32,005 nucleotides of DNA, taken from NCBI GenBank assembly GCA_913776885.1, contig CAJYQC010000501.1, forward strand, positions 1-32,005, given 5' to 3'. Origin of the DNA: an uncultured Variovorax sp. (GTDB taxonomy: Bacteria; Pseudomonadota; Gammaproteobacteria; Burkholderiales; Burkholderiaceae_C). Below the pieces are notes generated by a model. The model did not search any database, was not told the origin of the DNA, and was given only the letters and a program-made list of their open reading frames with translations. Positions within the stretch are counted from its first letter, which is position 1. Every line of letters begins with the position of its first letter. Of this stretch, positions 3,056 through 32,005 are shown piece after piece. The position numbers and the translations under genes were made by a program.

Positions 3056-4033
3056 CTATTCGAGGCTGAGCTGGCGCTCGCGCACCAGCCGCGTCCACTT
3101 GTCCTGCTCGAGCTTGAGCCGGGCTGCGAACTCCTCGGGCGTGTTGGCGATGCCGACCAGGCCCTGCTCCTGCAGGCGCGCAGCGAAGGCGGGGTCGGCG
3201 ACGATCTTGCGGATCTCCGCGTGCATCCGCTCGACGATCGGCCGCGGTGTGCCGGCCGGCGCCAGCATGCCGACCCAGGAGTTCACCTCGAAGCCGGGGT
3301 AGCCGCTCTGCGCCACCGTCGGCACGTCGGCATAGGCACTCACGCGGCGGGCGCCGGTCTGCGCCAGCGCACGGAGCTTGCCGGCCTTGACGTGGGGCTG
3401 CGCGAGCACCGCGGACAGGAACATCATCTCGACCTGGCCGCCGAGCAGATCCTGCTGGGCCGGGCCGCCGCCGCGGTAGGGAATGTGCGTGACGAAGGTG
3501 CCGGTCTCGGCCTTGAAGTACTCGGCGGTCAGGTGGTTGCTGGACCCCGGCCCTACGCTCGCGTAGTTGAAGCGGCCGGGCTGCGATTTCAGCAGGCTGA
3601 CGAAGCTCTTGAGGTCCTGCGCCGGCACCTTGGGATTCACCACCAGCACCAGCGGATTGCTCGCGATCTGCGTGACGGGGACCAGGTCCTTCGCGACGTC
3701 GAAGCCGAGCTTGGGGTACACCAGCGGATAGGTCGCATAGCTGTCGAACACCCTCAGCAGCGTGTAGCCATCGGGCGCGGCGCGGGCGACCTCCATCGAG
3801 CCGACAGTGCCGCCGGCGCCGCCCCGGTTGTCGATGATCACGGTCTGGCCCAGCGCCGCCTGCAGCCGCGGCTGGATCTGCCGCGCCACGTTGTCCACGA
3901 TGCCGCCGGGCGGGAAGGCCACCACCACGCGCACCGGCTTGCTCGGCCAGGCCGAGGTCTGGGACTGCGCGGGCATCGATGCCGCGAGAAGGAGTGCGCA
4001 GGCGGCCAGACCGCGCGCGAGGATCGAGTGCAT
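3056..4033 (-). CDS. Tripartite tricarboxylate transporter (TctC/Bug) family substrate-binding protein
   Basis: This 325-residue periplasmic protein belongs to the Bug/TctC family, which is greatly expanded in Burkholderiales. I chose the ATG at 4033 rather than the longer open frame because it follows a good ribosome site (AGGAGA, about eight bases upstream). It also starts a clean signal peptide of about 25 residues ending SMPAQSQ. The mature protein begins WPSKPVRVVVAFPPGG and carries IIDNRGGAGG and a DGYTLL segment, all typical of the family. No TctA/TctB membrane genes are visible nearby, as is usual for orphan Bug proteins. It lies between the aldehyde dehydrogenase (17-base gap) and maleylacetate reductase genes, so it probably binds the aromatic substrate or an intermediate. 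The ligand is unknown. Confidence 0.93.
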   Translation of the reverse strand: MHSILARGLAACALLLAASMPAQSQTSAWPSKPVRVVVAFPPGGIVDNVARQIQPRLQAALGQTVIIDNRGGAGGTVGSMEVARAAPDGYTLLRVFDSYATYPLVYPKLGFDVAKDLVPVTQIASNPLVLVVNPKVPAQDLKSFVSLLKSQPGRFNYASVGPGSSNHLTAEYFKAETGTFVTHIPYRGGGPAQQDLLGGQVEMMFLSAVLAQPHVKAGKLRALAQTGARRVSAYADVPTVAQSGYPGFEVNSWVGMLAPAGTPRPIVERMHAEIRKIVADPAFAARLQEQGLVGIANTPEEFAARLKLEQDKWTRLVRERQLSLE

Positions 4034-9599: not shown

Positions 9600-11186
9600 A
9601 TGCCCCCTGAAAGCGTGTTGCTGGCCGTCGCCAGCCTGTTGCCTGCGGTATCGATGCTGGCGGCCGTGCCTGTGCGGCGCGATGCCGCCGCGCCGGCGGT
9701 CTGGCGACGCTTCAGGGTGAACGCCGGCATCGCCGTCGTCGCGGCCGCGCTCAGCCTCGGACTGCAGCTCGCCGGCCCGGCCCCCTCGCCCACGCTGCCG
9801 CTGCCAGGCCTCGCGCTCACGCTGACGGCCGCCTGGGTCGCGCTGCTCGTGCAGACGCTCGGCACGGTGATCGGTGTGTTCTCTGCGCGCTACCTGCACG
9901 GAGAAGTCGACCAGCCGCGCTGCGTCGCGGCGCTCGGCGGCGTGCTGGCCGCGGTGCACCTGCTGCTGCTGGCCGACCACTGGCTGGTGCTGATCGCCGC
10001 CTGGGCCGCCGTGGGCTGGGCCATGCAACAGCTGCTGTGCTTCTACCGCGACCGCCCCTTCGCGCTGCTGGCCGCCCACAAGAAGCGGGTGGCCGACCGG
10101 CTGGCGGACGTTCTGCTGGTCACGGCAGCCCTGCTGGCGTGGCACGCCGTCGGATCGGGCTCGCTCTCCGCGATGTGGCGCCATCTGGAAGCCGGCGCGC
10201 CTTCGCCGGCACTGCAGGCCAGCGCGGTCTGCATGGCGCTGGCCGTCGTGCTGCGCACGGCGCTGCTCCCGGTGCACGGCTGGCTGATCCAGGTGATGGA
10301 GGCGCCCACGCCGGTCTCGGCGCTCCTGCATGCAGGCGTGATCAACCTGGGCGGGTACGTGCTGATCCGCTTCGCGCCCCTGCTGGATGCCGTGCCGGCC
10401 GCGCAATGGCTGCTGGTGGCGTGTGGCTTGATCACCGCCATGCTCGCGGGCCTGGTCATGCTCACCCGCGTCAGCATCAAGGTGCAGCTGGCCTGGTCCA
10501 CCGTGGCGCAGATGGGGTTCATGGTGATGGAGTGCGCACTGGGCCTGTACACCCTCGCCCTCCTGCACCTGCTCGGCCACTCGCTGTACAAGGCGCATGC
10601 CTTCCTCGCCGCATCGGGTGCCGTCGAATCGGCCCGTCTGCGGACGATGCGCGGCGCCACGTCGCCATCGGCGGCGAGCCTCGTGCTCGCGCCCCTCGGG
10701 TCCGGGGCGCTGATCGCGGCCTTGCTGGGCCTGCAGTCGCTGTACGGCCATGCCGGTGCGTGGCCGTGGTGGTGGGGCTGCGTGCTGGCGCTGGCCTGGG
10801 CCCCCCTGCTGTGGCTGCCGGCGCAGCGGCATCCCGAGGGTCCGGGCGCCGTGCGCGGCCTGCTCGCCGGTGCCGCGATGGTGACAGGCCTGGCGCTGGC
10901 CGCGCTGTCCGGCCACGCCCTGCCCCTCGGCACCGCCGACGCGCCCCATGCGGCGGCCGGGCTGGTAGCGATGGTCGGCATGGCCGCGCTGTACCTGTGC
11001 CTGGCGCTGCTGAATGCCCGGCCGGGCTGGATGGCGACCTGGCGCCGCTGGAGCTATGCCGGCTTCTACATCGACGAATACGCCACCCGCGCCGCACTGC
11101 GCCTGAGTCCTTCCCGCTGGACGCCGGTCGCCCCCACCGAATGCCGAATGAAACCCCGCGAGGAACCGCCATGCAGACCCTGCTGA
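9600..11186 (+). CDS. dabB: DabB-like membrane proton-channel subunit of an inorganic carbon accumulation complex
   Basis: This 528-residue polytopic membrane protein belongs to the NuoL/MrpA-like proton-translocating family. The stretch around HGWLIQVMEAPTPVSALLHAGVINLGGYVL and the following WSTVAQMGFMVMECALGLY region is typical of complex I antiporter-like subunits. There are roughly a dozen hydrophobic helices. It lacks the length of true NuoL and is followed directly by dabA, which identifies it as DabB (formerly labelled NADH-quinone oxidoreductase subunit L). DabB is thought to couple cation influx to DabA-catalysed CO2 hydration at the cytoplasmic side. The ribosome site is weak. The stop overlaps the dabA start by 16 bases, so translation is coupled. 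Confidence 0.93.
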   Translation: MPPESVLLAVASLLPAVSMLAAVPVRRDAAAPAVWRRFRVNAGIAVVAAALSLGLQLAGPAPSPTLPLPGLALTLTAAWVALLVQTLGTVIGVFSARYLHGEVDQPRCVAALGGVLAAVHLLLLADHWLVLIAAWAAVGWAMQQLLCFYRDRPFALLAAHKKRVADRLADVLLVTAALLAWHAVGSGSLSAMWRHLEAGAPSPALQASAVCMALAVVLRTALLPVHGWLIQVMEAPTPVSALLHAGVINLGGYVLIRFAPLLDAVPAAQWLLVACGLITAMLAGLVMLTRVSIKVQLAWSTVAQMGFMVMECALGLYTLALLHLLGHSLYKAHAFLAASGAVESARLRTMRGATSPSAASLVLAPLGSGALIAALLGLQSLYGHAGAWPWWWGCVLALAWAPLLWLPAQRHPEGPGAVRGLLAGAAMVTGLALAALSGHALPLGTADAPHAAAGLVAMVGMAALYLCLALLNARPGWMATWRRWSYAGFYIDEYATRAALRLSPSRWTPVAPTECRMKPREEPPCRPC

Positions 11187-13747
11187 GACCACCTGCCGCC
11201 AGCCCGCCCCGGCCGCTGCCGCCCGCACCCACCGATGGGACCACCGACGGGCCCGCCGATGAGGCCGCCATCGACGCGCGCATCGAGGCCGCCTGCGCAC
11301 AGGCCTGCCGCGCCATCGCACCAGCCTGGCCGCTGGACCGTGCGATCGCCGTCAACCCGCACTGGGAGCGCATCGGGTTGCGCATGCGCACCGTCGCGGC
11401 GCGCATGGCAGTGCTCGGCGACATCCGCGTACTGCCGCCGCGTGCACTCCTGCAGCAGGCGTGGGCCGCGGGCCGCATCACCGCCGCAGACCTCGATGCC
11501 GCGCTGGCCCGGCACCCCGAGGCGAAGACGGCCCGCCTGGATGCCGTGCGTGCCGTCGCCGAGCTCCACGCACCGCTCGCCTTGCCACGGCTGCCGCTGC
11601 TGATCGACGTGCTCGACGACGATCCCCAGGGGCAGCGGCGGCTGTCGTGGCGCCAGGCCATCACGCACCAGGTCAGCCAGGTCTGCGCGGCGTACTTCGA
11701 CACCCATCTGGCCCACTGGCAGCCCGCCCGCGAGGGCGGCCTCTACGCCTTCTGGCGCGACACGCTGACGCATGACCACGGCATCGGCGCGCTGATGGGG
11801 CTGCCGGACATCGCGCGCGGCCTCGGCGCACTGCCCGCCACGCGCGAACAGGCCGAGCGGTGGGTGCTGCGCCGCCTGGGCCTGCCCGAGGAGGGCTGGG
11901 CCGACTACCTCGAAGCGGTGCTGCTCACCGTGAACGGCTGGGCCTCGTGGTGCGCTTACCTGGGCTGGGAGGCACGCCTGTCAGGCGGCAGCGATGCGCA
12001 CCTGCGCGACCTGCTCGCGATCCGGCTGGCCTGGGGCGCCATCCTGCTGGGATGCGGTGCCGGCCAGCGGGCGCAAAGTGCGTTCGCTGCGCTGCAGGCG
12101 CAGTGGCAACGCGCGTCCGAACTGCTCGCGCAGGCCGACGAGGCGCTGATCGTCGACGAGGTCTGGCAGCTCGCCTTCGAGATCGGCTACCAGCGTGCGC
12201 TGGCGCGCCGGCTGCAGACCGCGACGCCGCCCCCGGCCTTTCCGGAGGCAGCGACGCGCGTCGAGGTACAGGCGGCCTTCTGCATCGACGTGCGCAGCGA
12301 GCCGCTGCGCCGCGCCATTGAAGCCGCATGGCCTGCAGTGCAGACCCTCGGCTGTGCCGGCTTCTTCGGCATGCCGGTGGCCTACACGCCGCTGGCCACC
12401 GAAGCGCGGCGCCCGCAGCTGCCGGGCCTGCTGGCCCCGGCGCTCGAAGCGACGGACCGCGTGGCAGCCGCTGCGGCCGACTTCGGCTCGGCCGGCGACA
12501 CGCTGCAAGCCTTGGCCCGCCGCTCACGGCTGCACCGCCTCGCGCACGGCGAGCGCTGGGGCACGGGCACCGTCTGGCCGAACGCGGCCTACGTGTCGGT
12601 CGAGGCGATCGGCCTGGGCTACGTGGGCAAGCTGGCGAAGTGGCTGCGCCCTTCCGCCGCTGCACGCAGCCCACTGGAGCAAGCCGGCCTGGCACCGCGC
12701 TACCGGCCTGTGTGCAGGCCGGTGCTCTCAGGGCTGGATCTGGCCGGGAAGGTGGACCTCGGTGCCGGCGTGCTGCACGCGATGGGACTGGACCGCGGCA
12801 TCGCGCCGCTGGTGCTGCTCGTCGGGCACGGCAGCCAGAGCGCCAACAACGCGCAGGCCGCGGCGCTGGACTGTGGCGCGTGCTGCGGCCAGACCGGGGA
12901 GGTCAACGCGCGCGTGCTGGCACGCCTGCTCAATGAGCCCGAGGTGCAGGCAGGTCTGGGCGCCCGTGGCATCGCGCTACCCGAGGGCGTGGCGTTCGTG
13001 GCAGCGCTGCACAACACCACCACCGACGAGATCGAGGGTTTCGACCTCGACCTGCTGGAAGCCGCCGCACGCGCACGCTGGGCACGCCTGCAGCCGGTCT
13101 TCGCGCAAGCAGGCGACCAGGTGCGCCGCGAGCGGGCGCCGGCGCTCGGACTGGCCCCCCAGCTGCCGCGTGCCGCGCTGCTGCAGCAGCTGCGCCGCCG
13201 CGCCAACGACGGCGCGCAGACGCGTCCCGAATGGGGCCTGGCCGGCAACGCGGCCTTCCTCATCGCGCCGCGCGCCCGCAGCGTGGGCGCGGTGCTCGAC
13301 GGGCGCAGCTTCCTGCACGACTACGACGCGAGCCACGACCCCGACGGCAGCGTGCTGGAGATGCTGATGACCGCGCCGATGCTTGTGACGCACTGGATCA
13401 ACTGGCAGGACCACGCCTCCACCTGCGACCCGCGTCATCTGGGCAGCGGCAACAAGGTGCTGCACAACGTGGTCGGCGGCCGCATCGGCGTGTTCGAAGG
13501 CAACGGTGGCGACCTGCGCATCGGGCTGGCGAAGCAGTCGCTGCACGACGGCGACCGATGGCGCCACGAGCCGCTGCGCCTCACCGTGGTGATCGACGCG
13601 CCGGCCGAGGCCATCGACCGGGTGATCGCCAGGCATGCCGTGGTGCGCCAGCTGCTCGACAACGACTGGCTGCATCTGTGGCGATTTGCCCGAGGCGGCG
13701 GCTTCGAACGCCGTGCGCCGGGCCGTTGGGAACCGCTCGCGCTTTGA
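11171..13747 (+). CDS. dabA: DabA-like (DUF2309) zinc-dependent CO2 hydration subunit
   Basis: This 858-residue DUF2309 protein is the peripheral catalytic partner of DabB and resembles a beta-carbonic anhydrase active site. Zinc-site residues are visible: Cys371 and Asp373 in FCIDVRSEPLRR, with Arg375, then His553 in LVGHGSQSANN and Cys568 in ALDCGACCGQ. The spacings (2 residues between Cys and Asp, 15 between His and the second Cys) equal those I recall for Halothiobacillus DabA (Cys351, Asp353, His524, Cys539). The ATG at 11171 is chosen for its GAGGA site; an ATG ten codons upstream is possible. The long open frame further upstream is the dabB gene read in another frame. The protein is on the long side for the family, with a proline-rich N-terminus of about 30 residues. 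Confidence 0.95.
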   Translation: MQTLLRPPAASPPRPLPPAPTDGTTDGPADEAAIDARIEAACAQACRAIAPAWPLDRAIAVNPHWERIGLRMRTVAARMAVLGDIRVLPPRALLQQAWAAGRITAADLDAALARHPEAKTARLDAVRAVAELHAPLALPRLPLLIDVLDDDPQGQRRLSWRQAITHQVSQVCAAYFDTHLAHWQPAREGGLYAFWRDTLTHDHGIGALMGLPDIARGLGALPATREQAERWVLRRLGLPEEGWADYLEAVLLTVNGWASWCAYLGWEARLSGGSDAHLRDLLAIRLAWGAILLGCGAGQRAQSAFAALQAQWQRASELLAQADEALIVDEVWQLAFEIGYQRALARRLQTATPPPAFPEAATRVEVQAAFCIDVRSEPLRRAIEAAWPAVQTLGCAGFFGMPVAYTPLATEARRPQLPGLLAPALEATDRVAAAAADFGSAGDTLQALARRSRLHRLAHGERWGTGTVWPNAAYVSVEAIGLGYVGKLAKWLRPSAAARSPLEQAGLAPRYRPVCRPVLSGLDLAGKVDLGAGVLHAMGLDRGIAPLVLLVGHGSQSANNAQAAALDCGACCGQTGEVNARVLARLLNEPEVQAGLGARGIALPEGVAFVAALHNTTTDEIEGFDLDLLEAAARARWARLQPVFAQAGDQVRRERAPALGLAPQLPRAALLQQLRRRANDGAQTRPEWGLAGNAAFLIAPRARSVGAVLDGRSFLHDYDASHDPDGSVLEMLMTAPMLVTHWINWQDHASTCDPRHLGSGNKVLHNVVGGRIGVFEGNGGDLRIGLAKQSLHDGDRWRHEPLRLTVVIDAPAEAIDRVIARHAVVRQLLDNDWLHLWRFARGGGFERRAPGRWEPLAL

Positions 13748-22774: not shown

Positions 22775-25700
22775 CTAGCGGCCGTCCAAAGCGCGCGCCC
22801 CGCCAACTGGGTCGTTCTCGAAGATGCGAAGGGCACCCGAGTCGCTCAGGCGTTTTGCAGCGACGAGCGCATCGACCGCCTCCACGACACGTCGCTCAGC
22901 CTCCGCTGGCATGCGGGCCATGCCGATCAGCCGGCATACCGCTCTTGCGGTGTCGGACCGGGAAGGCCGGCCCGCCTCGCGAACGACATGCAACACCAAG
23001 GCGGCCACTTCCTCTGTGCAGACCTCGCTCACGTGCCGTTTGGACGCTTCGCTCGCGTCGGCGATACGGAATCCGTCCCAGTGCCTCGGGTCAGCGTTCG
23101 CCGGCCAATAGAAGGTCTCATGGCCCTCTTGCGTCCGCGGCAGCCTGGCCGGGATCAAACCCCTGAGCCGCTCGACAATCCTGGCGCCTGTGCGCTCGAG
23201 TCCCCACGCTCGTGCAACCCGCTTGAACAGCGCCGACTCGGGGACGGGTCCTTCGGCTTCGATCACGAGCTGAAGCTGATCCGAAAGCCGGCGGCTCGAA
23301 TGCAACTCGTAGAACGCGAGCGCGTCGCCAGGCGCGACGGTGGCTGGCGCGTACACCTGCAAGCTGCGGCCTTGCGGACCTGCCGTGGGCGCCTGTGCTG
23401 CAACGGGATCCAGCGCCGGCGTTTGTGCCGCACTGCCAGGCTCGGGATTGGCATCCGTCACCTCTGCATCGATCGGCGACGCTGGCGCAAATTCGTCCAG
23501 GCCCTCTCCAGTGTCGTCGCTCTCTTCTTCCACCAGGGACTGAAGCAACGCCGCCAGCTTCTGCATCTCTGACTCGGGATCGACCCACCAGTCCGTGGAC
23601 CAGATGCGGTGAATTCGCCAGCCGAGGCCCTCGAGCACCAACTGGCGCAGGCGGTCGCGATCGCGCGCGGTGGCTGCTGAGTGGTACGCGCGGCCGTCGC
23701 ATTCGATCCCGACAAGGTAGCGGCCCGGGGCACGCGGGTCCACGACGGCCATGTCGATGCGATAGCCCGAGCAGCCGACTTGAGGATGCACGGTCCAGCC
23801 CATGTCGCGCAGGACCTTGATGACCGCCAGCTCGAATGGACTCTCGGGCTCCAAGCCGGTCGGTGAACTCTGCTCGACGAGAGCCCGCGCACCGCGGATG
23901 GCGAATTCGAGATAGTGCTTCAGATCACGCACGCCGGCGGCGCGCACCCTCGCGAGGTCGATCTGCTCGGGCATGAGCGAGCTGTAGATGACCACCGCCT
24001 CACGCGCCCGCGAGATGGCGACATTCAGCCGACGGTGCCCCCCTTCGCCATTCAGTGGCCCGAAGTTCATGGTGGTCTTGCCCGCGGCGTCGGGGCCGTA
24101 GGTGATGGAGAAGAAGATGACGTCGCGCTCGTCGCCCTGGACGTTCTCGAGGTTCTTGACGAACAGCTTCTCCCGGGTCTGCGCCGCGATGGCACGGTCG
24201 AGGTCCGAATTTGCACGGCGCCGTGCATCCAGCAAGGTGTCGATGAGCGATTGCTGGGTCTGGTTGAAGGTGACGACACCGAGGGTCAGGTCACGCTTCT
24301 TCGGATTCAGGAAGTGCTCCTCGATGCCCGCGACGACGGCCTCCGCCTCCGCGCGGTTCGTCCTGCTGCCCCCACGGTCGTAGACACCCGCGACCCGCTG
24401 GAACTTGACTGCCAGGTCGTCGGTCACCGGTGACGGGAAGGTCACCAGAGAGTCGTCGTAGTAACGGTGGTTGCTGAAAGTGATGAGGCTTTCGTGGCGG
24501 CTGCGGTAGTGCCACTGGAGGCTGAGCCTGTTCATGCCGGCACCGAGGCATTCGTCAAGGATGCTCTCGAGATCCTCGACCCGCTCGTCGTCACCAGAAC
24601 CTCCGTCGTCACTGTCGGAGGATTTGTTGAAGAAGTTGGTGGGAGGCAACTGCTTCGGGTCGCCCACCACCGCCAGTTGCTTGCCGCGGGCAATCACGCC
24701 CACCGCGTCCCACACGGGAATCTGCGACGCTTCGTCGAAGATGACCAGATCGAACTGCGAGAAGCCTGCATCCAGGTACTGCGACACCGAGAGCGGCGAC
24801 ATCAGAAGGCACGGCTTGAGCTTGGGAAGAAGCGTGGGCATGGCCTGAACGAGCTGGCGCACGGGCATATGGGCACGCTGCTTCTGGCGCTCGCGCAGGA
24901 GGCGCCCCATCTCCGGGTTTGCCTTCGCTGCCACGCCCGTCGCGGAAGGAATCCGCCCCGCCAACGTCGCGGCAAGGTATCTTTCCGTCAGCTTCCAGTT
25001 GCGGTAGCTGAATTCGAAGTGCTCACCGACCTCGCTCAAGCCGATGACGCCCTCCTCGAGGTCCGACACGAGCCCCTGGAGTCCTTGCGCCACAGCCTTA
25101 TCCCGCACATTCCTCCACAGGCACCAGGCTTGCAGCCGCTGCTTGGACGCTTGCCAGCCAGCAATGACGCCTTGGAGACGCTCCAACGTCCCGTCTGCGT
25201 TGCTCGGCCCGGCAATCGGCGCAATCGGTCTGGCAGCATTGTTGAGCGCTTCGAGCTTCTGGCGCATATCGCGCCAGGCGCTGCGGAACTCGATGAGCGC
25301 CTGCCCGACCTTGCCGTTCGATTCGAGCGCGACGCGGTTCTCCGCAACCAGCGGCTGCAGGGCACTGCGCAGCGCCTGCGCGCGTGCATCGTCGCCTGCG
25401 GCGACTCGCGCCACCGCCTGGGAGAACCGATTCGCCCAGTCATCGTGAGCCGCCACTGCGCTCCAATCGGTTTTCAGGCCGTCGTAGGCGTCTTCGAGCA
25501 ATGCCTGCGCATCGGTGTGCATCGACCGCAGCACCAGGTCTTCCTCGTTGAGCTCCATCAGCGGGTGGAGCATTGCGTCGACCTGGGCCGCGGAGGGGCG
25601 CTTTCCGTCTTCGCGGAAGCCGGCCAGTTTCGCCGTGATGGCGCGCCTGCCCCATATCGCCTTCAGCCACCAGGATGCATTCGCCTCGGACCAGCTTGAA

Positions 25701-28700
25701 AGCAGCTCGGCGCCATTGAGCTTGGCCAGCTGCGGCGTCCATCCGGGGCCGACGCTTTCCCAGTGCTCGGCCCGTGCGGTGCCGTGCTTCACCAGTGCCT
25801 GGAGGCGCGCATGCGTTGCGGGCTCGTGGGCCTGGCGCGCGACCGCAACGGGTACCTTGGGCGCCGCGAGCAGCATGTCGGCAAGCGTGTCCGTGTGCCC
25901 GAAGGTGTCCATGCTCGAGCCCGCAAGGTTCAGCCCGAAGACGGCCTCGAGGGTTCGTGCCTTGGCCTGGAAGACCGTGACCACGCGGGAGAGATCCTGG
26001 CAAGCGACAAACAGCTCGTCTCCCCAGCCGTTGCTCCACTGCGTCATGCCGATGAGGCCGAGCGGGTGACCGTTCAGTCCGCCGATGGCGCCCGCCAGGG
26101 TGGCCATGCTCCGAGAGGTTTCCCTGAGCCCGTCGAGCTCGTCGCGCTTGTGCGTCATGGCGTCGGCCCACGGCATCGGGGACGGCTTCCTGACGCTGTT
26201 GCCGATGCAGGTGCCAATGGCGTCAAAAACCGTGAGCCCATTGGGGTGGACCTGATGCAACGAGCCGACGAGCCCGTTGAGCTCCTGGCGCAACTGCGCA
26301 AGGCGCTCGGCCTCGCGAGACCAGTCCTCCGAAGTGCGCTGGCCGGCCATGTCCAGCGCGCTGCCCAGTTGCTGCAGGACCTCCGACTTCTTCGACTTCG
26401 AGGAGTGAAGCTCGAGGCAGAAAGGCCCCAGCCCGATGGCTTCGAGCCGCCGATGCACGACCGACAAGGCTGCCATCTTCTCCGACACGAACAGGACGGT
26501 TTTGCCGCGCCCTAGCGCGTGGGCGATCATGTTGGTGATGGTCTGGCTCTTGCCTGTGCCTGGAGGCCCCTCGAGCACCAGGTCGCGACCCGTGTCAACG
26601 CAGCAGATGGCTTTCAGCTGCGACGAGTCGGACAGAAGCGGCGCGAGGATGTCCTGTGGCTTGTGGCTCAAGTCGAGCTGTGCAAACTCGGCAACTTCGC
26701 CATCGCGCTCGAAAGCCTGCCCAGGGTGGTCGATCAGGTGCTTCACCACGCGGTTGGCCTTCAGCTGCTCGGTGCGGTCCTGCAGGTCCTTCCACATCAG
26801 GTACTTCGTGAAAGAGAAAAGGCCCAGATGGGCCTCCTCACGGACTTCCCAGTGCTTGATCTCAGCGACTGCGAGGCGAAACGCCTGCAGCACGCGGCCC
26901 ACGTCGATACCCTTCTCGTCGCTGGGCAAGACTTCCAGCCCGGGAATACGGAGCTCGAAGCTGGCCTTGAGGAACTGCAGGAGCGTCGGGTTGACGATGG
27001 CTTCGTCGTCGTGCCTCGCGAGCCTGAAACCGGAACGCACCGACTGCCGTTGGAGCGTGACGGGCACCAGAAGGATCGGAGCGAGGTTCCTGCGCTCGGA
27101 CTTCTCGTCTTCCGTCCACCGCAACAGGCCGATGGCCAAGTAGAGCGTATTGGCGCCGCCTTCTTCCAGGCCCGTGCGCGCGACGGTATGGATGGCGAGC
27201 AGGCGCCCGTCCAGTTCATCCGCTTTCACCTCGGCGAGCAAATCCCTGTTCGCCAGTGCCTCAAGTGCCATGTCATCCAGCGGCGAGCTGCCACTGCGGC
27301 CGGCGTGGACCTCAGCCATCCGCGGGTCGGCCCCTTCCATGATGCCGGGTAGCGGCCGGACCTTGAAGTCCTTGCCGTCAGACAAAACGTCTTCGAGGCG
27401 TGCCAGGTCAGGCGCAACGAGCTTCAGGGTCGTCTTCGTGGCCTTGAAGTTCAGGAGCTTGTTGCGCAGCGTCAAATCCAGAAGGCGGGCTTTCCACTTC
27501 GACAGGCGCCCCTCCGGCGTCTCGTCAAAGGACAGGTCCAGCGGGTCGATCGCCGCCACATCCAGCTCGGGCAGCTGTGGGGGCGGCTCGATGCCGACCG
27601 GCGGCTGCTCCTCTTCGCTTTCTACCCGCCGTACTTGCACCGCCCTGGAAGGCAGGGGTTTGATCTGGACTTGGCGGGCACGGTGAATGTCCACCGCATA
27701 CCTGAAGGCATCCTCGTCGAGCAGGTGCGCACTGCCCTGCTCCATCGCAATCCGCAAGGTGGGACGGTGGCTGTGATGCAGCGCGATGCCTGTGGTCTCG
27801 AAGACCAGGAGTTCCCCGCTGTCGACACGCTTGCGCACGGCCTGCACGTCATCGGTCAGAGGGTCTGGGAAGCTCGCCTGGTGCAGCCACACCCCCACCC
27901 ATGCGTGCCCCTCCTTGATCAAGACCACAGGCCGCAGGCCCGCCTGCTCGAAGCAGGATGCAAAGAGCATGGCCAGATCCAGACAGGTGGCCACGCCGGT
28001 ATCAAGGACGCGGTCTGGCGTGCGAATCTTCTGGCCGTCGGTTCCAAACGACGCGGGCGGCTCCGCGTAGTGCAGCCCAGCGGCGGCGACGATGCTGTAG
28101 ACGGCAGATATCTGCTTCCACACCACATCACGGCTCTTGGACTGGTAGCCGTTCATCGACAGCTCGTTGTGCGCCTCCCGCAGCAGCCCCGAAGCCTTTT
28201 GCAGCAGCACATCGATGGCCGGGTTGTTGGGCATGCAGAAGGCCGCGAGCAGTTCCGGCAACGCGCGGGTTCCAGCCCATTGGTCGTAGGCAAGGACCTG
28301 CACAGCCTGGGTCCTGCGGGCCAATTCCGTATTGGCAGCCGTCACCGTCACGGTGATCGTTGCCTGCACGGCTTCCGAAAGCTCGGCCAGGAAGGTGTGA
28401 TCCGGGCGCAGGTCGATCGGCGAGATCCGGCGCGACTCGCCGGGTGCCAGTCGGTCGAACCGCAGCCTGGCTCCATCAGCAAAGCGCGGATTGCAGCCCA
28501 CCTGCACCTCCAGGCCTTCGAGCGCCTGCGACCCGTTGTTGGTCAGTCGCAGGGACCGTATGACCGGCACCGCGTTCTGAATCGACGCATACCCCAGCGT
28601 CCCATCCGCTTCGATGTCCACGAGGACCACTTCCGGCGGCTCATCGGGCTGCGCCCCTTCCTTGGCCCCAGTCGGCAAGGCTTCTTCGTTTTCCAGGACT

Positions 28701-28705
28701 TCCAA
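22775..28705 (-). CDS. DUF4011 / SF1 helicase / Vsr-like nuclease / DUF3320 protein (Hhe-type anti-phage defence)
   Basis: This 1976-residue protein combines several domains. Residues 40-140 look like a beta-sandwich. A transglutaminase-like fold follows (Cys241 in GVATCLDLAM, His267 in GHAWVGVWL, Glu303 in VFETT). DUF4011 spans about 400-470 (WKARLLDLTLRNKLLNFKAT). A Upf1-like SF1 helicase has Walker A GPPGTGKS at 713-720, DEASQIP with Asp1324 and Glu1325, GDPKQLPPTNFF, HYRSRHESL, and NVAISRAREAV near the end. A Vsr/MTES_1575-type PD-(D/E)xK nuclease has Glu1625, Asp1651 and the ECDGRAYHS motif at 1668-1676. DUF3320 follows from about 1795. I recall this architecture as the Hhe system that protects bacteria from phage. 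The start is TTG, supported by a perfect GGAGGAG six bases upstream. It is a single-gene unit. Confidence 0.92.
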   Translation of the reverse strand: MEVLENEEALPTGAKEGAQPDEPPEVVLVDIEADGTLGYASIQNAVPVIRSLRLTNNGSQALEGLEVQVGCNPRFADGARLRFDRLAPGESRRISPIDLRPDHTFLAELSEAVQATITVTVTAANTELARRTQAVQVLAYDQWAGTRALPELLAAFCMPNNPAIDVLLQKASGLLREAHNELSMNGYQSKSRDVVWKQISAVYSIVAAAGLHYAEPPASFGTDGQKIRTPDRVLDTGVATCLDLAMLFASCFEQAGLRPVVLIKEGHAWVGVWLHQASFPDPLTDDVQAVRKRVDSGELLVFETTGIALHHSHRPTLRIAMEQGSAHLLDEDAFRYAVDIHRARQVQIKPLPSRAVQVRRVESEEEQPPVGIEPPPQLPELDVAAIDPLDLSFDETPEGRLSKWKARLLDLTLRNKLLNFKATKTTLKLVAPDLARLEDVLSDGKDFKVRPLPGIMEGADPRMAEVHAGRSGSSPLDDMALEALANRDLLAEVKADELDGRLLAIHTVARTGLEEGGANTLYLAIGLLRWTEDEKSERRNLAPILLVPVTLQRQSVRSGFRLARHDDEAIVNPTLLQFLKASFELRIPGLEVLPSDEKGIDVGRVLQAFRLAVAEIKHWEVREEAHLGLFSFTKYLMWKDLQDRTEQLKANRVVKHLIDHPGQAFERDGEVAEFAQLDLSHKPQDILAPLLSDSSQLKAICCVDTGRDLVLEGPPGTGKSQTITNMIAHALGRGKTVLFVSEKMAALSVVHRRLEAIGLGPFCLELHSSKSKKSEVLQQLGSALDMAGQRTSEDWSREAERLAQLRQELNGLVGSLHQVHPNGLTVFDAIGTCIGNSVRKPSPMPWADAMTHKRDELDGLRETSRSMATLAGAIGGLNGHPLGLIGMTQWSNGWGDELFVACQDLSRVVTVFQAKARTLEAVFGLNLAGSSMDTFGHTDTLADMLLAAPKVPVAVARQAHEPATHARLQALVKHGTARAEHWESVGPGWTPQLAKLNGAELLSSWSEANASWWLKAIWGRRAITAKLAGFREDGKRPSAAQVDAMLHPLMELNEEDLVLRSMHTDAQALLEDAYDGLKTDWSAVAAHDDWANRFSQAVARVAAGDDARAQALRSALQPLVAENRVALESNGKVGQALIEFRSAWRDMRQKLEALNNAARPIAPIAGPSNADGTLERLQGVIAGWQASKQRLQAWCLWRNVRDKAVAQGLQGLVSDLEEGVIGLSEVGEHFEFSYRNWKLTERYLAATLAGRIPSATGVAAKANPEMGRLLRERQKQRAHMPVRQLVQAMPTLLPKLKPCLLMSPLSVSQYLDAGFSQFDLVIFDEASQIPVWDAVGVIARGKQLAVVGDPKQLPPTNFFNKSSDSDDGGSGDDERVEDLESILDECLGAGMNRLSLQWHYRSRHESLITFSNHRYYDDSLVTFPSPVTDDLAVKFQRVAGVYDRGGSRTNRAEAEAVVAGIEEHFLNPKKRDLTLGVVTFNQTQQSLIDTLLDARRRANSDLDRAIAAQTREKLFVKNLENVQGDERDVIFFSITYGPDAAGKTTMNFGPLNGEGGHRRLNVAISRAREAVVIYSSLMPEQIDLARVRAAGVRDLKHYLEFAIRGARALVEQSSPTGLEPESPFELAVIKVLRDMGWTVHPQVGCSGYRIDMAVVDPRAPGRYLVGIECDGRAYHSAATARDRDRLRQLVLEGLGWRIHRIWSTDWWVDPESEMQKLAALLQSLVEEESDDTGEGLDEFAPASPIDAEVTDANPEPGSAAQTPALDPVAAQAPTAGPQGRSLQVYAPATVAPGDALAFYELHSSRRLSDQLQLVIEAEGPVPESALFKRVARAWGLERTGARIVERLRGLIPARLPRTQEGHETFYWPANADPRHWDGFRIADASEASKRHVSEVCTEEVAALVLHVVREAGRPSRSDTARAVCRLIGMARMPAEAERRVVEAVDALVAAKRLSDSGALRIFENDPVGGARALDGR

Positions 28706-28718: not shown

Positions 28719-29026
28719 AGAGGAAAAGCCATTTTGCGCCCAGTGCAACAAGTCTCAGCTCACACGTTCAGGTGAATCACGCACTTTTCCGGGTGAAGCA
28801 AGTGCCGCGCGTCCGGTCGACTGCGCATCGACTGCGCGACCCCGGTCAGGTCGTGAAGCCGCCGTGGGCCATTCGATGGCTGCCCGGGCTCGGGCCTGAG
28901 CGTCCCCGACACGCAACACGCGCCGCCCGCAGCATGCCGCCGCCGGGCATTCCTGTGCCATGATGAAGTTAACAATTCCAATCCGAAACCCCGGGCGCCC
29001 CCCGCCCCCGATCGCATCGCGTCATC
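28719..29026. other. Intergenic region between the defence gene and the TRAP-like gene
   Basis: These 308 bases separate divergent genes. A minus-strand frame ending near 28760 (HLLHPEKCVIHLNV) looks faintly like a protein C-terminus but has no start or recognisable family. I see no tRNA, terminator or repeat. Promoters for both flanking genes are expected here, but none is obvious. Confidence 0.45.
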
Positions 29027-30070
29027 TTGGCCTACCTCGTCGCACTTCTGATGTTCGTCGCATCGCTGTGCCATGCGCAGACGGCGCCTGTCCAGCGCCT
29101 GCGCATCGTCGGAGGGCTCGGAGGGGTCACGCAATACACAGGCCAGGAGGAGCAGTTCTGGACGCGCGACCTCGCGGCGCTGTCCGGCGGGCGCTACACG
29201 GCCAGCATCGTGCCCTTCGACCGCGCGGGCGTGCCGGGCCAGGAGATGCTGAACCTGATGCAGCTGGGCGTGGTGCCCTTCGGGACGGCGCTGCTGAGCC
29301 AGGTGTCCGTCCAGCTTCCGGAGCTCGGCGCGCCGGACATGGCCGGCCTCAGCCCCGACGTCGCCACGCTGCGCCGCGTGGTCGGCGCATTCCGCCCCTA
29401 CCTGTCGCAGGTGCTGCGCGAGCGCTATGACGTGGAACTGCTGGCGATCTACATCTATCCGGCGCAGGAGGTGTTCTGCAGCAAGCCGATGCGCCGGCTC
29501 GGCGATCTCGCGGGCCGCCGCATCCGGGTGTCCAGCTCCATGCAGGCCGACTTCGTCTCGGCGCTGGGCGGCACGCCGGTGTACACAGAGTTCTCGCAGA
29601 TCGTCGCGAACATGAAGTCGGGCAACACCGAGTGCGCCATCACCGGGACCATGTCCGGGCACTCGCTGGGCCTGCATCAGGTGACCAGCGTGCTCTATGC
29701 CATGCCGTTGAACTGGGGTGTGGCGGTCTTCGCCGCCAACCGCGAGAGCTTCCTTGCGCTGCCGCCCGACCTTCAGGCGCTGCTGCGCAAGGAACTGCCG
29801 CGGCTGGAGAACGCGGTATGGACGCAGTCGGAGCGAGAGACCGAGGAAGGCATCGCGTGCAGCACCGGGGCCGCGGGCTGCAGCAGGCCCTCCCCGGGCA
29901 GCATGACGGCCGTGCGGCCCTCGCCGCAGGACGAGGCGCGCCGCCGCGAGATCTTCGCCACCCGCGTGCTGCCCGGATGGGTGCAGCGCTGCGGACCGGC
30001 GTGCGCCACCGTCTGGAATCAGACGATCGCGCCGGCAGTCGGCATCCAGGCCAGGTCGACGGGACAGTGA
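29027..30070 (+). CDS. Orphan TRAP-type (DctP-like) periplasmic substrate-binding protein
   Basis: This protein of about 347 residues has a hydrophobic export signal (AYLVALLMFVASLCHA, cleavage before QTAPV) and a DctP-family core. FDRAGVPGQEMLNLMQLGVVPFG and VFCSKPMRRLGDLAGRRIRVSS are followed by GGTPVYTEFSQIVANMKSGNTECAITG, the ligand-pocket region of TRAP binding proteins with its conserved arginine. No TRAP membrane genes (DctQ, DctM) are present. Its stop (TGA) overlaps the ATG of a GGDEF sensor gene by one base, suggesting a role in sensing rather than uptake. The start is uncertain: the only candidate in frame is TTG at 29027 without a ribosome site. The signal peptide then lacks a basic N-region, so a start or frame problem upstream is possible. 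Confidence 0.85.
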   Translation: MAYLVALLMFVASLCHAQTAPVQRLRIVGGLGGVTQYTGQEEQFWTRDLAALSGGRYTASIVPFDRAGVPGQEMLNLMQLGVVPFGTALLSQVSVQLPELGAPDMAGLSPDVATLRRVVGAFRPYLSQVLRERYDVELLAIYIYPAQEVFCSKPMRRLGDLAGRRIRVSSSMQADFVSALGGTPVYTEFSQIVANMKSGNTECAITGTMSGHSLGLHQVTSVLYAMPLNWGVAVFAANRESFLALPPDLQALLRKELPRLENAVWTQSERETEEGIACSTGAAGCSRPSPGSMTAVRPSPQDEARRREIFATRVLPGWVQRCGPACATVWNQTIAPAVGIQARSTGQ

Positions 30071-32005
30071 TGACGCGATTTCCCCGCCGTGTCACCGCCA
30101 TCGTCTATGGCGTGGCGCTGGCGTTTCTCGTCACCGTGGGGACGGTGGCCTCCGTCATCGTCTGGGAGGCCAGACAGAAGGCCATCGTCGATCACGAGAA
30201 CCAGACGGTCCGCTTCGTGGGTGGTTCCGAGGCCGCGCTCAATCGCGCGCTGCTGAGCGTCGACATGCTGCTCGCAGGCGCCAACGAGATCGTGCGCGGC
30301 TCGACCGCCGCCAGCGCCGGCGACGACGCGAAAAGCCCCGGCCCGCGCCAGCTGCTCGAGAGCCTGGTTCGGCAGAACCTGCTCGTGCGCCACGTCGCCT
30401 TCGTCGATGCGCGAGGCACTGTGCTGGCATCCTCGGACCGGCGCGGCGACCGCCTGCCGCTCGCGCTGCCCGATGGCTTCGTCGACAGCGTGCTCGCCAA
30501 GCCCGTGTCCACGCTGGCGATCAGCCTGCCGGCCACGAGCATGGTGACCTCGCAGAAGGTGCTGTATCTCGCCCGCGCCGTGACGCTGGCAGACGGCTCG
30601 CGCATCCTGGCGGTGGCGGAGGTGCAGCTGTCGCTGCTCACGACGATCATGACCCAGGGTGCCGGCCTGCGCGGCCTGGAGGTCACGCTGGAGCGCGACG
30701 CCGGTCCGCTCCTTGCGAGCCTGCCGACGCGCGACGACCTGGGCGGCCGGCAGATCGAGCCGCCGCTGCACGAACAGACCAGCGACGGCAGGCCGCAGCG
30801 CATGGCTGCACGCCTGAGCGGTGAACCGGCCATCGTGGTGGCCCGCCCCACGCTGCACCGAAACCTGCTGATCGTGGCCAGCATGCCGATGAGCGCTGCG
30901 CTGCGGGACTGGCGCCGCGAGAGAAGCCTGATCGCGTGGACTGGCGCGCTGATCGCGCTGATGATCGTCGCCGTGGCGTGCTTCGCGCACCTGCAGCTGC
31001 TGCGCCAATGGCGCTCACGCGTGGAGGTTGTGCGATCCAAGGCCACGCTCGATCAGGCGCTGGAGTCGATGGTCGACGGCTTCATCCTCCTGGACGCGGA
31101 GCATCGCGTGCTCACCTGGAACCGCCGCTTCGTCGCGATGTTCCCGTGGACTGCTTCGATGATCGCGCCGGGGCTTCCCTTCCAGCGCATCATGGATGAA
31201 ACCGCAAGGCACGTGGTGCACGGCGGCGGGCCCATCGGCTGGTCGGCGCTGAATGTGCCCCAGTTGGCACAGCCGCACTCCGAACAGGAGGCGCTGCTGC
31301 AGAACGGCCAGGTGATCCGCGCGGCCCGCAGCCGCACACCCGATGGCGGCATGGTGTGCGTCTACCAGGACATCACCGAGAAGCGTCGCCACACGGCCGC
31401 CATCATCGAGAGCAAGGCACAGCTGCAGGCCACGCTCGATGCCCTGCCCGACCTGCTGCTCGAAGTCGGGCTCGACGGCCGCTGCCATGGCCACCACACG
31501 CCGCGGGTGCCCTTCCCGGCCACAGGACTCGAAAACCCCGTGGGACGTACCCTGCAGGAACTGCTGCCGCCCGACGCCGCCTCGCAGGTGATGGCGGCCC
31601 TGCGCGAAGCCCACGCCAGCGGCTATTCGGCAGGGCGCCAGTTCGAGCGGCGCGACCAGGGCGAACGCACCTGGTTCGAGATCTCGGCGTCGCGGAAATC
31701 GCTCGACGAAGCAGACGGCGAGACGGTCGCTGGCCCGCTCGACGAACCGTCGGCCGGCAGCGATGCGAGCGGCGCCCGCTTCATCGTGATCCTGCGCGAC
31801 ATCACTCAGAGCAAGCGCGCGGCACGCGAGATCGAACACCTCGCCTTCTACGACACCCTCACCGGCCTGCCCAATCGGCGGCGGCTGCTCGACCGCCTTC
31901 ACCAGACCATCGGCGACGCCGCGCAGCGCCCCGGGCTGTGCGCGCTGCTGTTTCTCGATCTGGACAACTTCAAGACATTGAACGACGCGCTCGGCCACGA
32001 TGTGG
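30070..32005 (+). CDS. Membrane sensor with periplasmic domain, two PAS domains and GGDEF (diguanylate cyclase), partial
   Basis: The 645 visible residues run off the right edge. The layout is: basic N-terminus (MTRFPRR), transmembrane helix 1 (about 10-32), a periplasmic region of about 250 residues that looks like a dCache-type sensor (with HVAFVDARGTVLASSDRRG), transmembrane helix 2 (about 286-308), PAS domain 1 (about 327-430, MVDGFILLDAEHRVLTWN, ending VYQDITEKRR), PAS domain 2 (about 445-575, ending ILRDITQSKRA) and the start of a GGDEF domain (FYDTLTGLPNRRRLLDRL, then LFLDLDNFKTLNDALGHDV). The GGDEF signature itself and any EAL domain lie outside. The product should make cyclic di-GMP in response to a periplasmic ligand, probably together with the binding protein encoded just upstream. 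Confidence 0.92.
   Translation, partial: MTRFPRRVTAIVYGVALAFLVTVGTVASVIVWEARQKAIVDHENQTVRFVGGSEAALNRALLSVDMLLAGANEIVRGSTAASAGDDAKSPGPRQLLESLVRQNLLVRHVAFVDARGTVLASSDRRGDRLPLALPDGFVDSVLAKPVSTLAISLPATSMVTSQKVLYLARAVTLADGSRILAVAEVQLSLLTTIMTQGAGLRGLEVTLERDAGPLLASLPTRDDLGGRQIEPPLHEQTSDGRPQRMAARLSGEPAIVVARPTLHRNLLIVASMPMSAALRDWRRERSLIAWTGALIALMIVAVACFAHLQLLRQWRSRVEVVRSKATLDQALESMVDGFILLDAEHRVLTWNRRFVAMFPWTASMIAPGLPFQRIMDETARHVVHGGGPIGWSALNVPQLAQPHSEQEALLQNGQVIRAARSRTPDGGMVCVYQDITEKRRHTAAIIESKAQLQATLDALPDLLLEVGLDGRCHGHHTPRVPFPATGLENPVGRTLQELLPPDAASQVMAALREAHASGYSAGRQFERRDQGERTWFEISASRKSLDEADGETVAGPLDEPSAGSDASGARFIVILRDITQSKRAAREIEHLAFYDTLTGLPNRRRLLDRLHQTIGDAAQRPGLCALLFLDLDNFKTLNDALGHDV

Follow-up and report, generated by a model that had tools for sequence, protein, structure and literature searches.

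A gene for a DctP-type solute-binding protein and a gene for a membrane sensor form a two-gene unit at the end of the window, i.e., the whole stretch of 32,005 nucleotides analysed here, and the two genes are strictly co-conserved in related genomes. We propose, with a probability of roughly 0.7, that this DctP has left TRAP transport and would serve as a dedicated periplasmic co-receptor of the dCache sensor. In the proposed mechanism, DctP would bind a small, probably carboxylated molecule in the periplasm and, in either its liganded or its empty form, would contact the dCache domain of the sensor encoded on the same message. The signal would then pass through the second transmembrane (TM) helix and PAS_7 to GGDEF-EAL, leading to a change in c-di-GMP.

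The gene pair and its two proteins

The window is the entire contig C501 of a 5.48-Mb assembly of 625 contigs, and its closest relatives are Variovorax. The gene for the DctP-type (TRAP family 7) protein of 347 aa occupies 29027-30070 (+), with a TTG start and the stop TGA at 30068-30070, and the sensor gene runs from 30067 (+) to the contig end at 32005, leaving its first 646 codons. An earlier note on this DNA had placed both genes correctly, and the contig simply stops there. The junction had been described as a one-base overlap in TGATG; these letters do stand at 30068-30072, but the conserved sensor start is the GTG at 30067, which gives a 4-base overlap of the dctP stop and the sensor start, GTGA (30067-30070, +), in 7/7 Variovorax copies. 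The ATG at 30070, a second possible sensor start, is present only in the window among these seven copies, and the dctP start position is the same in all of them (TTG, GTG or ATG). Across the 47 pair loci described below, the 4-base overlap is found in 29 and a gap of −4 to +22 in 43, as counted with a start-picking procedure that favours overlaps.

The sensor begins with a TM helix, a dCache-like periplasmic domain and a second TM helix (residues 7-320; 30085-31026, +), as placed by an AlphaFold model, HMM comparison and Foldseek. The periplasmic head matches 3lif by HMM (E 4.4e-8), and its AlphaFold model has a mean pLDDT of 74.8, with the part 214-254 under 50. The Foldseek neighbours of this model are Cache chains (E to 3.5e-7, with modest TM-scores), and Pfam dCache_1 reaches 30.9 bits on the window head, under its cut-off of 45. 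The head is modelled as a dCache sensor domain, with a tandem PAS-like fold between the two TM helices.

Behind the head, Pfam recognises PAS_7 at 31060-31395 (+) (PF12860, 2.1e-20), PAS_4 at 31435-31725 (+) (PF08448, 1.6e-9) and the first third of GGDEF at 31843-32004 (+) (PF00990 positions 1-54), the gene being incomplete in the window because C501 ends inside GGDEF; the GGDEF motif and EAL lie outside the window. Its likely remainder is found at G000:C513:15325-16474 (minus strand), where the end of another contig of the same assembly matches, at 91%, the 3′ part of the sensor from V. paradoxus 110B and contains GGDEF positions 61-160, the GGDEF motif and EAL. Since no overlap was found when the ends of C501 and C513 were compared, it is by homology and orientation that the two parts would belong to one sensor gene.

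Five complete Variovorax sensors (L013-L016 and L018; 1008-1036 aa), among them those of V. gossypii (L013) and V. paradoxus 110B (L014), carry both GGDEF and EAL, and all catalytic motif patterns tried for these domains match in 5/5, so that both enzyme activities may be possible. Given EAL in these copies, and EAL and the GGDEF motif on C513, the window sensor is, by its predicted domains, a GGDEF-EAL protein rather than a plain diguanylate cyclase, and with such an output net breakdown of c-di-GMP would be as likely as its synthesis. The periplasmic domain, the two PAS domains and the GGDEF described earlier are present, but GGDEF is incomplete in the window, EAL has to be added, and the assignment as a diguanylate cyclase only does not hold. 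A sensor ending without a functional GGDEF had been named as counter-evidence; the motif is present on C513. The designation of the binding protein as an orphan stands, since no DctM was found on C501 or C513 in a search of the contigs of its own genome, and the 8 DctM matches of that genome sit on seven other contigs, which argues against a DctM just beyond the window, a further piece of counter-evidence named earlier.

The window DctP matches PF03480 (E 1e-13; 51.7 bits vs. a cut-off of 23.4) and NCBIfam TRAP_S1 (E 8.7e-18; 64.6 bits vs. a cut-off of 50), and falls below threshold with the narrower TIGR00787 dctP model (38 vs. 175). Pfam assigns it to the DctP family only, and not to the PotD/PotF family. 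Its export to the periplasm is assumed, because the signal sequence has no basic residue ahead of the hydrophobic stretch. R167 and six cysteine residues are common to sensor-linked and DctM-linked DctPs (46 vs. 38 rows, the latter including L144, which lies at a contig end with no DctM in view). In alignment, Arg167 falls on the Arg of DctP-type proteins of solved structure, making a carboxylate a plausible ligand. In contrast, position 216 is L in 46/46 sensor-linked DctPs vs. W in 38/38 relatives, position 165 is R in 91% vs. K in 38/38, and at position 215 the sensor-linked proteins mostly have G in place of K. The nearest solved relatives are the Bordetella-type set 4n4u, 2pfy and 2pfz, of which 2pfy and 2pfz are presumably the crystals with bound pyroglutamate. 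Two Bordetella DctPs were crystallised with this ligand, according to the available part of a review (PMC5812351). A structure model of DctP built from 7 rows had a mean pLDDT of 42.9 and was set aside.

Upstream of dctP, at 28954-28970, the stretch TGTGCCATGATGAAGTT is kept with small changes in 6/7 Variovorax copies, as judged by eye; in the window, the dctP reading frame is non-coding there, and the stretch may be a promoter. The window also encodes binding proteins of the Peripla_BP_6 type (683-1933, −) and the TctC type (3059-3976, −), and an inorganic-carbon transporter pair of Proton_antipo_M and DabA genes (9615-13744, +). Beside the dctP/sensor pair, 22778-28705 (−) encodes a 1976-aa DUF4011 helicase with an MTES_1575 nuclease domain, a candidate anti-phage defence protein on the strength of its scores with two PADLOC models, PDC-S37 (1290.8 bits) and Hhe (612.8 bits).

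Co-conservation and descent

A profile of seven DctPs was searched against 250 genomes of the family, with the first 8 or 9 candidates per genome considered, and matched in at least 60 of them at E ≤ 1e-30. Sixty of the matching places, the window and six named Variovorax loci make up the 67 loci that were compared, with G101:C242 and G104:C127 left out. At 348 bits or more, 47 loci have a sensor-head frame adjoining dctP in 47/47, and DctM lies beside dctP in none of them; in the pair locus L079, a DctM is found 4 kb off on the other strand. At 302 bits or less, the sensor head is present in 0/20 loci and DctM lies on the same strand in 20/20, within ~2 kb downstream in 19 and ~1.1 kb upstream in L099. 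The expectation of the earlier note that related genomes would hold the same pair without dctQM is borne out, as regards an adjoining DctM, by 47 of the 67 loci, and a lack of co-conservation, which it had set against the idea, was not what the comparison gave. The pair is present in at least 41 of the 250 family genomes, its own included, and spans 27 genera. Its distribution is patchy, since it is missing from the two other genomes of the same genus in the 250-genome draw: among the matches listed, G122 has the DctM-linked DctP type only, and G215 has no DctP match.

Searching in the opposite direction, from the sensor head, over the same number of genomes and again with the first 8 or 9 candidates per genome, gave at least 45 matches over 200 bits, of which 41 are the DctP/sensor pair. 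Four strong heads (L109-L112) are without DctP. In L109 and L110, an SBP_bac_8/SBP_bac_1 protein gene ends ~12 bases before the sensor, and in L111 the nearer of two tandem TctC proteins ends ~330 bases before it. In the stretch examined for L112, neither DctP nor another recognised binding protein was found beside the sensor head, and the upstream gene looks, by eye, like a short-chain dehydrogenase. The SBP_bac_8 type genes (L109:6611-8125 and L110:7572-8915) belong to two genomes of genus g62, both of which also have the DctP pair. In the stretches examined around 13 weaker head matches (<78 bits), where only DctP was looked for, no DctP was found.

At the order level, 21 of 349 genomes have a DctP match at E 1e-60. 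Twenty loci outside the family, with second copies in G424, G383 and G420 and two loci in G509 left out, have the sensor head in none, DctM in 17 and neither in three (L131, L136 and L144); the stretch of L144 stops at a contig end. L131 and L136, without DctM or sensor in 18 kb, cluster with each other (98/96) and could represent a different sort of orphan.

The 47 pair sensors comprise 32 of the GGDEF type, 13 hybrid histidine kinases and 2 that are cut off (L017 and L074), with the label of L012 taken from C513 and that of L087 from Pfam; little sequence follows the sensor in L012, L017, L054 and L074. An EAL profile match is found in 30 of the 32 GGDEF-type loci, the exceptions being the window, with its EAL on C513, and L054, which ends early near a contig end. 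All four kinase-type sensors scanned (L050, L064, L082 and L087) contain PAS_7, HisKA, HATPase and REC. Over the seven sensors scanned, head and PAS_7 are kept in both output types, with PAS_7 below cut-off in L086. The head, i.e., dCache then PAS_7, is constant while the outputs vary, and the c-di-GMP output claimed earlier applies to 32 of the 47 loci and not to the 13 with a kinase.

Of the 86 DctPs placed in a tree, the 46 linked to a sensor form one clade (support 100/100, root unknown). Its stem is 0.75 changes per site long, and DctM-linked DctPs surround it, L144 being counted among the latter despite its contig end. A single capture of DctP from TRAP transport would be the simplest reading. 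L088 (G003) was left out of the trees; its dctP lies in two frames and its sensor is open, which is either decay or a sequencing error. DctP and head distances are correlated (r 0.81 for 46 rows and 0.72 without Variovorax, vs. a best of 0.28 in 1000 permutations), and the DctP and head trees have several groups in common, although r comes without species-tree control and common descent alone could produce both results. Both output kinds occur within one clade, which is firm, and the DctP and head trees suggest repeated swaps of the output domain, although holding the GGDEF rows together is not rejected by the AU test (p 0.063 for the DctP tree and 0.177 for the head tree).

Weighing the explanations

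The co-receptor reading is supported by the linkage to the sensor in 47/47 loci vs. 0/20 DctM-linked ones, by the 41 DctP pairs among at least 45 strong head matches, by the position of the sensor-linked DctPs as one clade on a long stem and by the change of output while DctP and head stay. The binding proteins of other families near three of the four other strong heads, the correlated distances, and the retention of R167 and the six cysteines with replacement of W216 by L and K165 by R point the same way, and precedents exist in NspS-MbaA (PMC9993111) and BctC-BctE (PMC5812351), as described in the available parts of these papers. L112, a sensor head with no DctP found in the stretch examined, weakens the reading. 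The earlier note had already proposed that the binding protein presents a carboxylate to the sensor; co-conservation, the absence of adjoining DctM, the DctP clade and the partners from other families strengthen the co-receptor part of that proposal, whereas the GGDEF-EAL output, the kinase in 13/47 loci and the 4-base overlap depart from it.

Alternatively, DctP could feed a DctQM encoded elsewhere while the sensor reads the same nutrient by itself, in a pocket of its dCache domain, with nothing but co-expression joining the two genes. DctM is found elsewhere in 40/40 pair-bearing genomes searched and, with 8 matches, in the own genome, so that DctP could serve a permease in trans and a test for DctM absence does not discriminate; in addition, most structural neighbours of the head are receptors whose solved structures contain a ligand bound directly. 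However, DctM adjoins dctP in all 20 DctM-linked relatives and at none of the 47 pair loci, the sensor-linked DctPs sit on a long stem and have lost W216 and K165, and near-strict one-to-one conservation over 27 genera would be surprising for mere co-expression. We regard this alternative as unlikely. Somewhat less probable again is a negative partner, whose empty form would hold the sensor off or on until ligand releases it, with the sensor reading the absence of ligand. For NspS, the form that contacts MbaA is a matter of model, with apo and liganded forms both discussed in the sections available (PMC9993111); this is in effect a sub-case of the co-receptor reading, with which either direction would agree. 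It is very improbable that the genes adjoin by descent only, with no functional link. Part of the conservation does reflect common descent, because the wider upstream gene order is common to several family members, but what surrounds the pair varies from locus to locus (SDR, EamA, MFS, catabolic and other genes, with no common ligand hint, among 19 proteins scanned) while the pair stays, and the output is swapped behind the kept head.

The co-receptor reading may extend to a modular receptor family, which we suggest tentatively and at slightly less than even odds: the dCache sensor would read only via a partner binding protein, with DctP captured once, SBP_bac_8 or TctC proteins as alternatives, and c-di-GMP or kinase outputs. 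If true, such a family would be a plug-in route turning orphan binding proteins into signal inputs in Burkholderiales. How partners are chosen could be probed by comparing the domains of the kinase-output pairs and of the heads that go with binding proteins of other families.

Comparison with known systems

The abundance in Burkholderiales of orphan binding proteins without an obvious permease is a standing question, treated for TctC-type orphans in the available part of PMC5812351, and one such group would gain a clear likely job as sensor input. Binding proteins as sensor partners are an accepted principle (PMC9602780, in the portion available). In a literature search of open-licence papers, no pair of a TRAP-type binding protein and c-di-GMP was found; the word DctP is absent from a 2022 census of c-di-GMP inputs (PMC8846402), and the accessible portions of PMC2405808, PMC2147049, PMC3375315 and PMC4268860 hold nothing on a DctP/sensor pair. 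Within the open-licence literature searched, c-di-GMP would here be linked for the first time to a binding protein of the TRAP type.

The likeness to NspS-MbaA of Vibrio cholerae and Sinorhizobium meliloti lies in a binding protein without a transporter role of its own, which informs a membrane c-di-GMP sensor about polyamines and whose gene overlaps or adjoins the sensor gene (the overlap is 3 bases long in S. meliloti, 16 in Vibrio), as the available sections of PMC9993111 describe. Here, too, the binding-protein gene overlaps that of a membrane GGDEF-EAL sensor, MbaA and the present sensor being likened by description and not by sequence. NspS, however, is PotD/PotF-like, of the ABC polyamine type (PMC9993111, same sections), whereas the partner here is a DctP of the TRAP type. 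In BctC-BctE of Bordetella pertussis, a secondary-transporter binding protein also contacts a sensor, but it belongs to the TctC family, its sensor is a histidine kinase, it still serves transport and the gene order is another (PMC5812351, part available). DctS-DctB-DctA of Bacillus subtilis likewise joins a C4-dicarboxylate co-receptor to a sensor kinase (PMC6978683, part available). That system differs in that kinase and transporter are in complex and the output is not c-di-GMP. B. subtilis DctB is itself a member of the DctP family. The TRAP DctPs of DctPQM systems, the nearest relatives by tree, share the fold family and the carboxylate-type Arg, and differ in that a DctM gene adjoins there and a sensor gene adjoins here. 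The present pair differs from the known pairs in the family of its binding protein, which appears to have given up transport entirely for sensing, and in the exchange of partners and outputs around one head.
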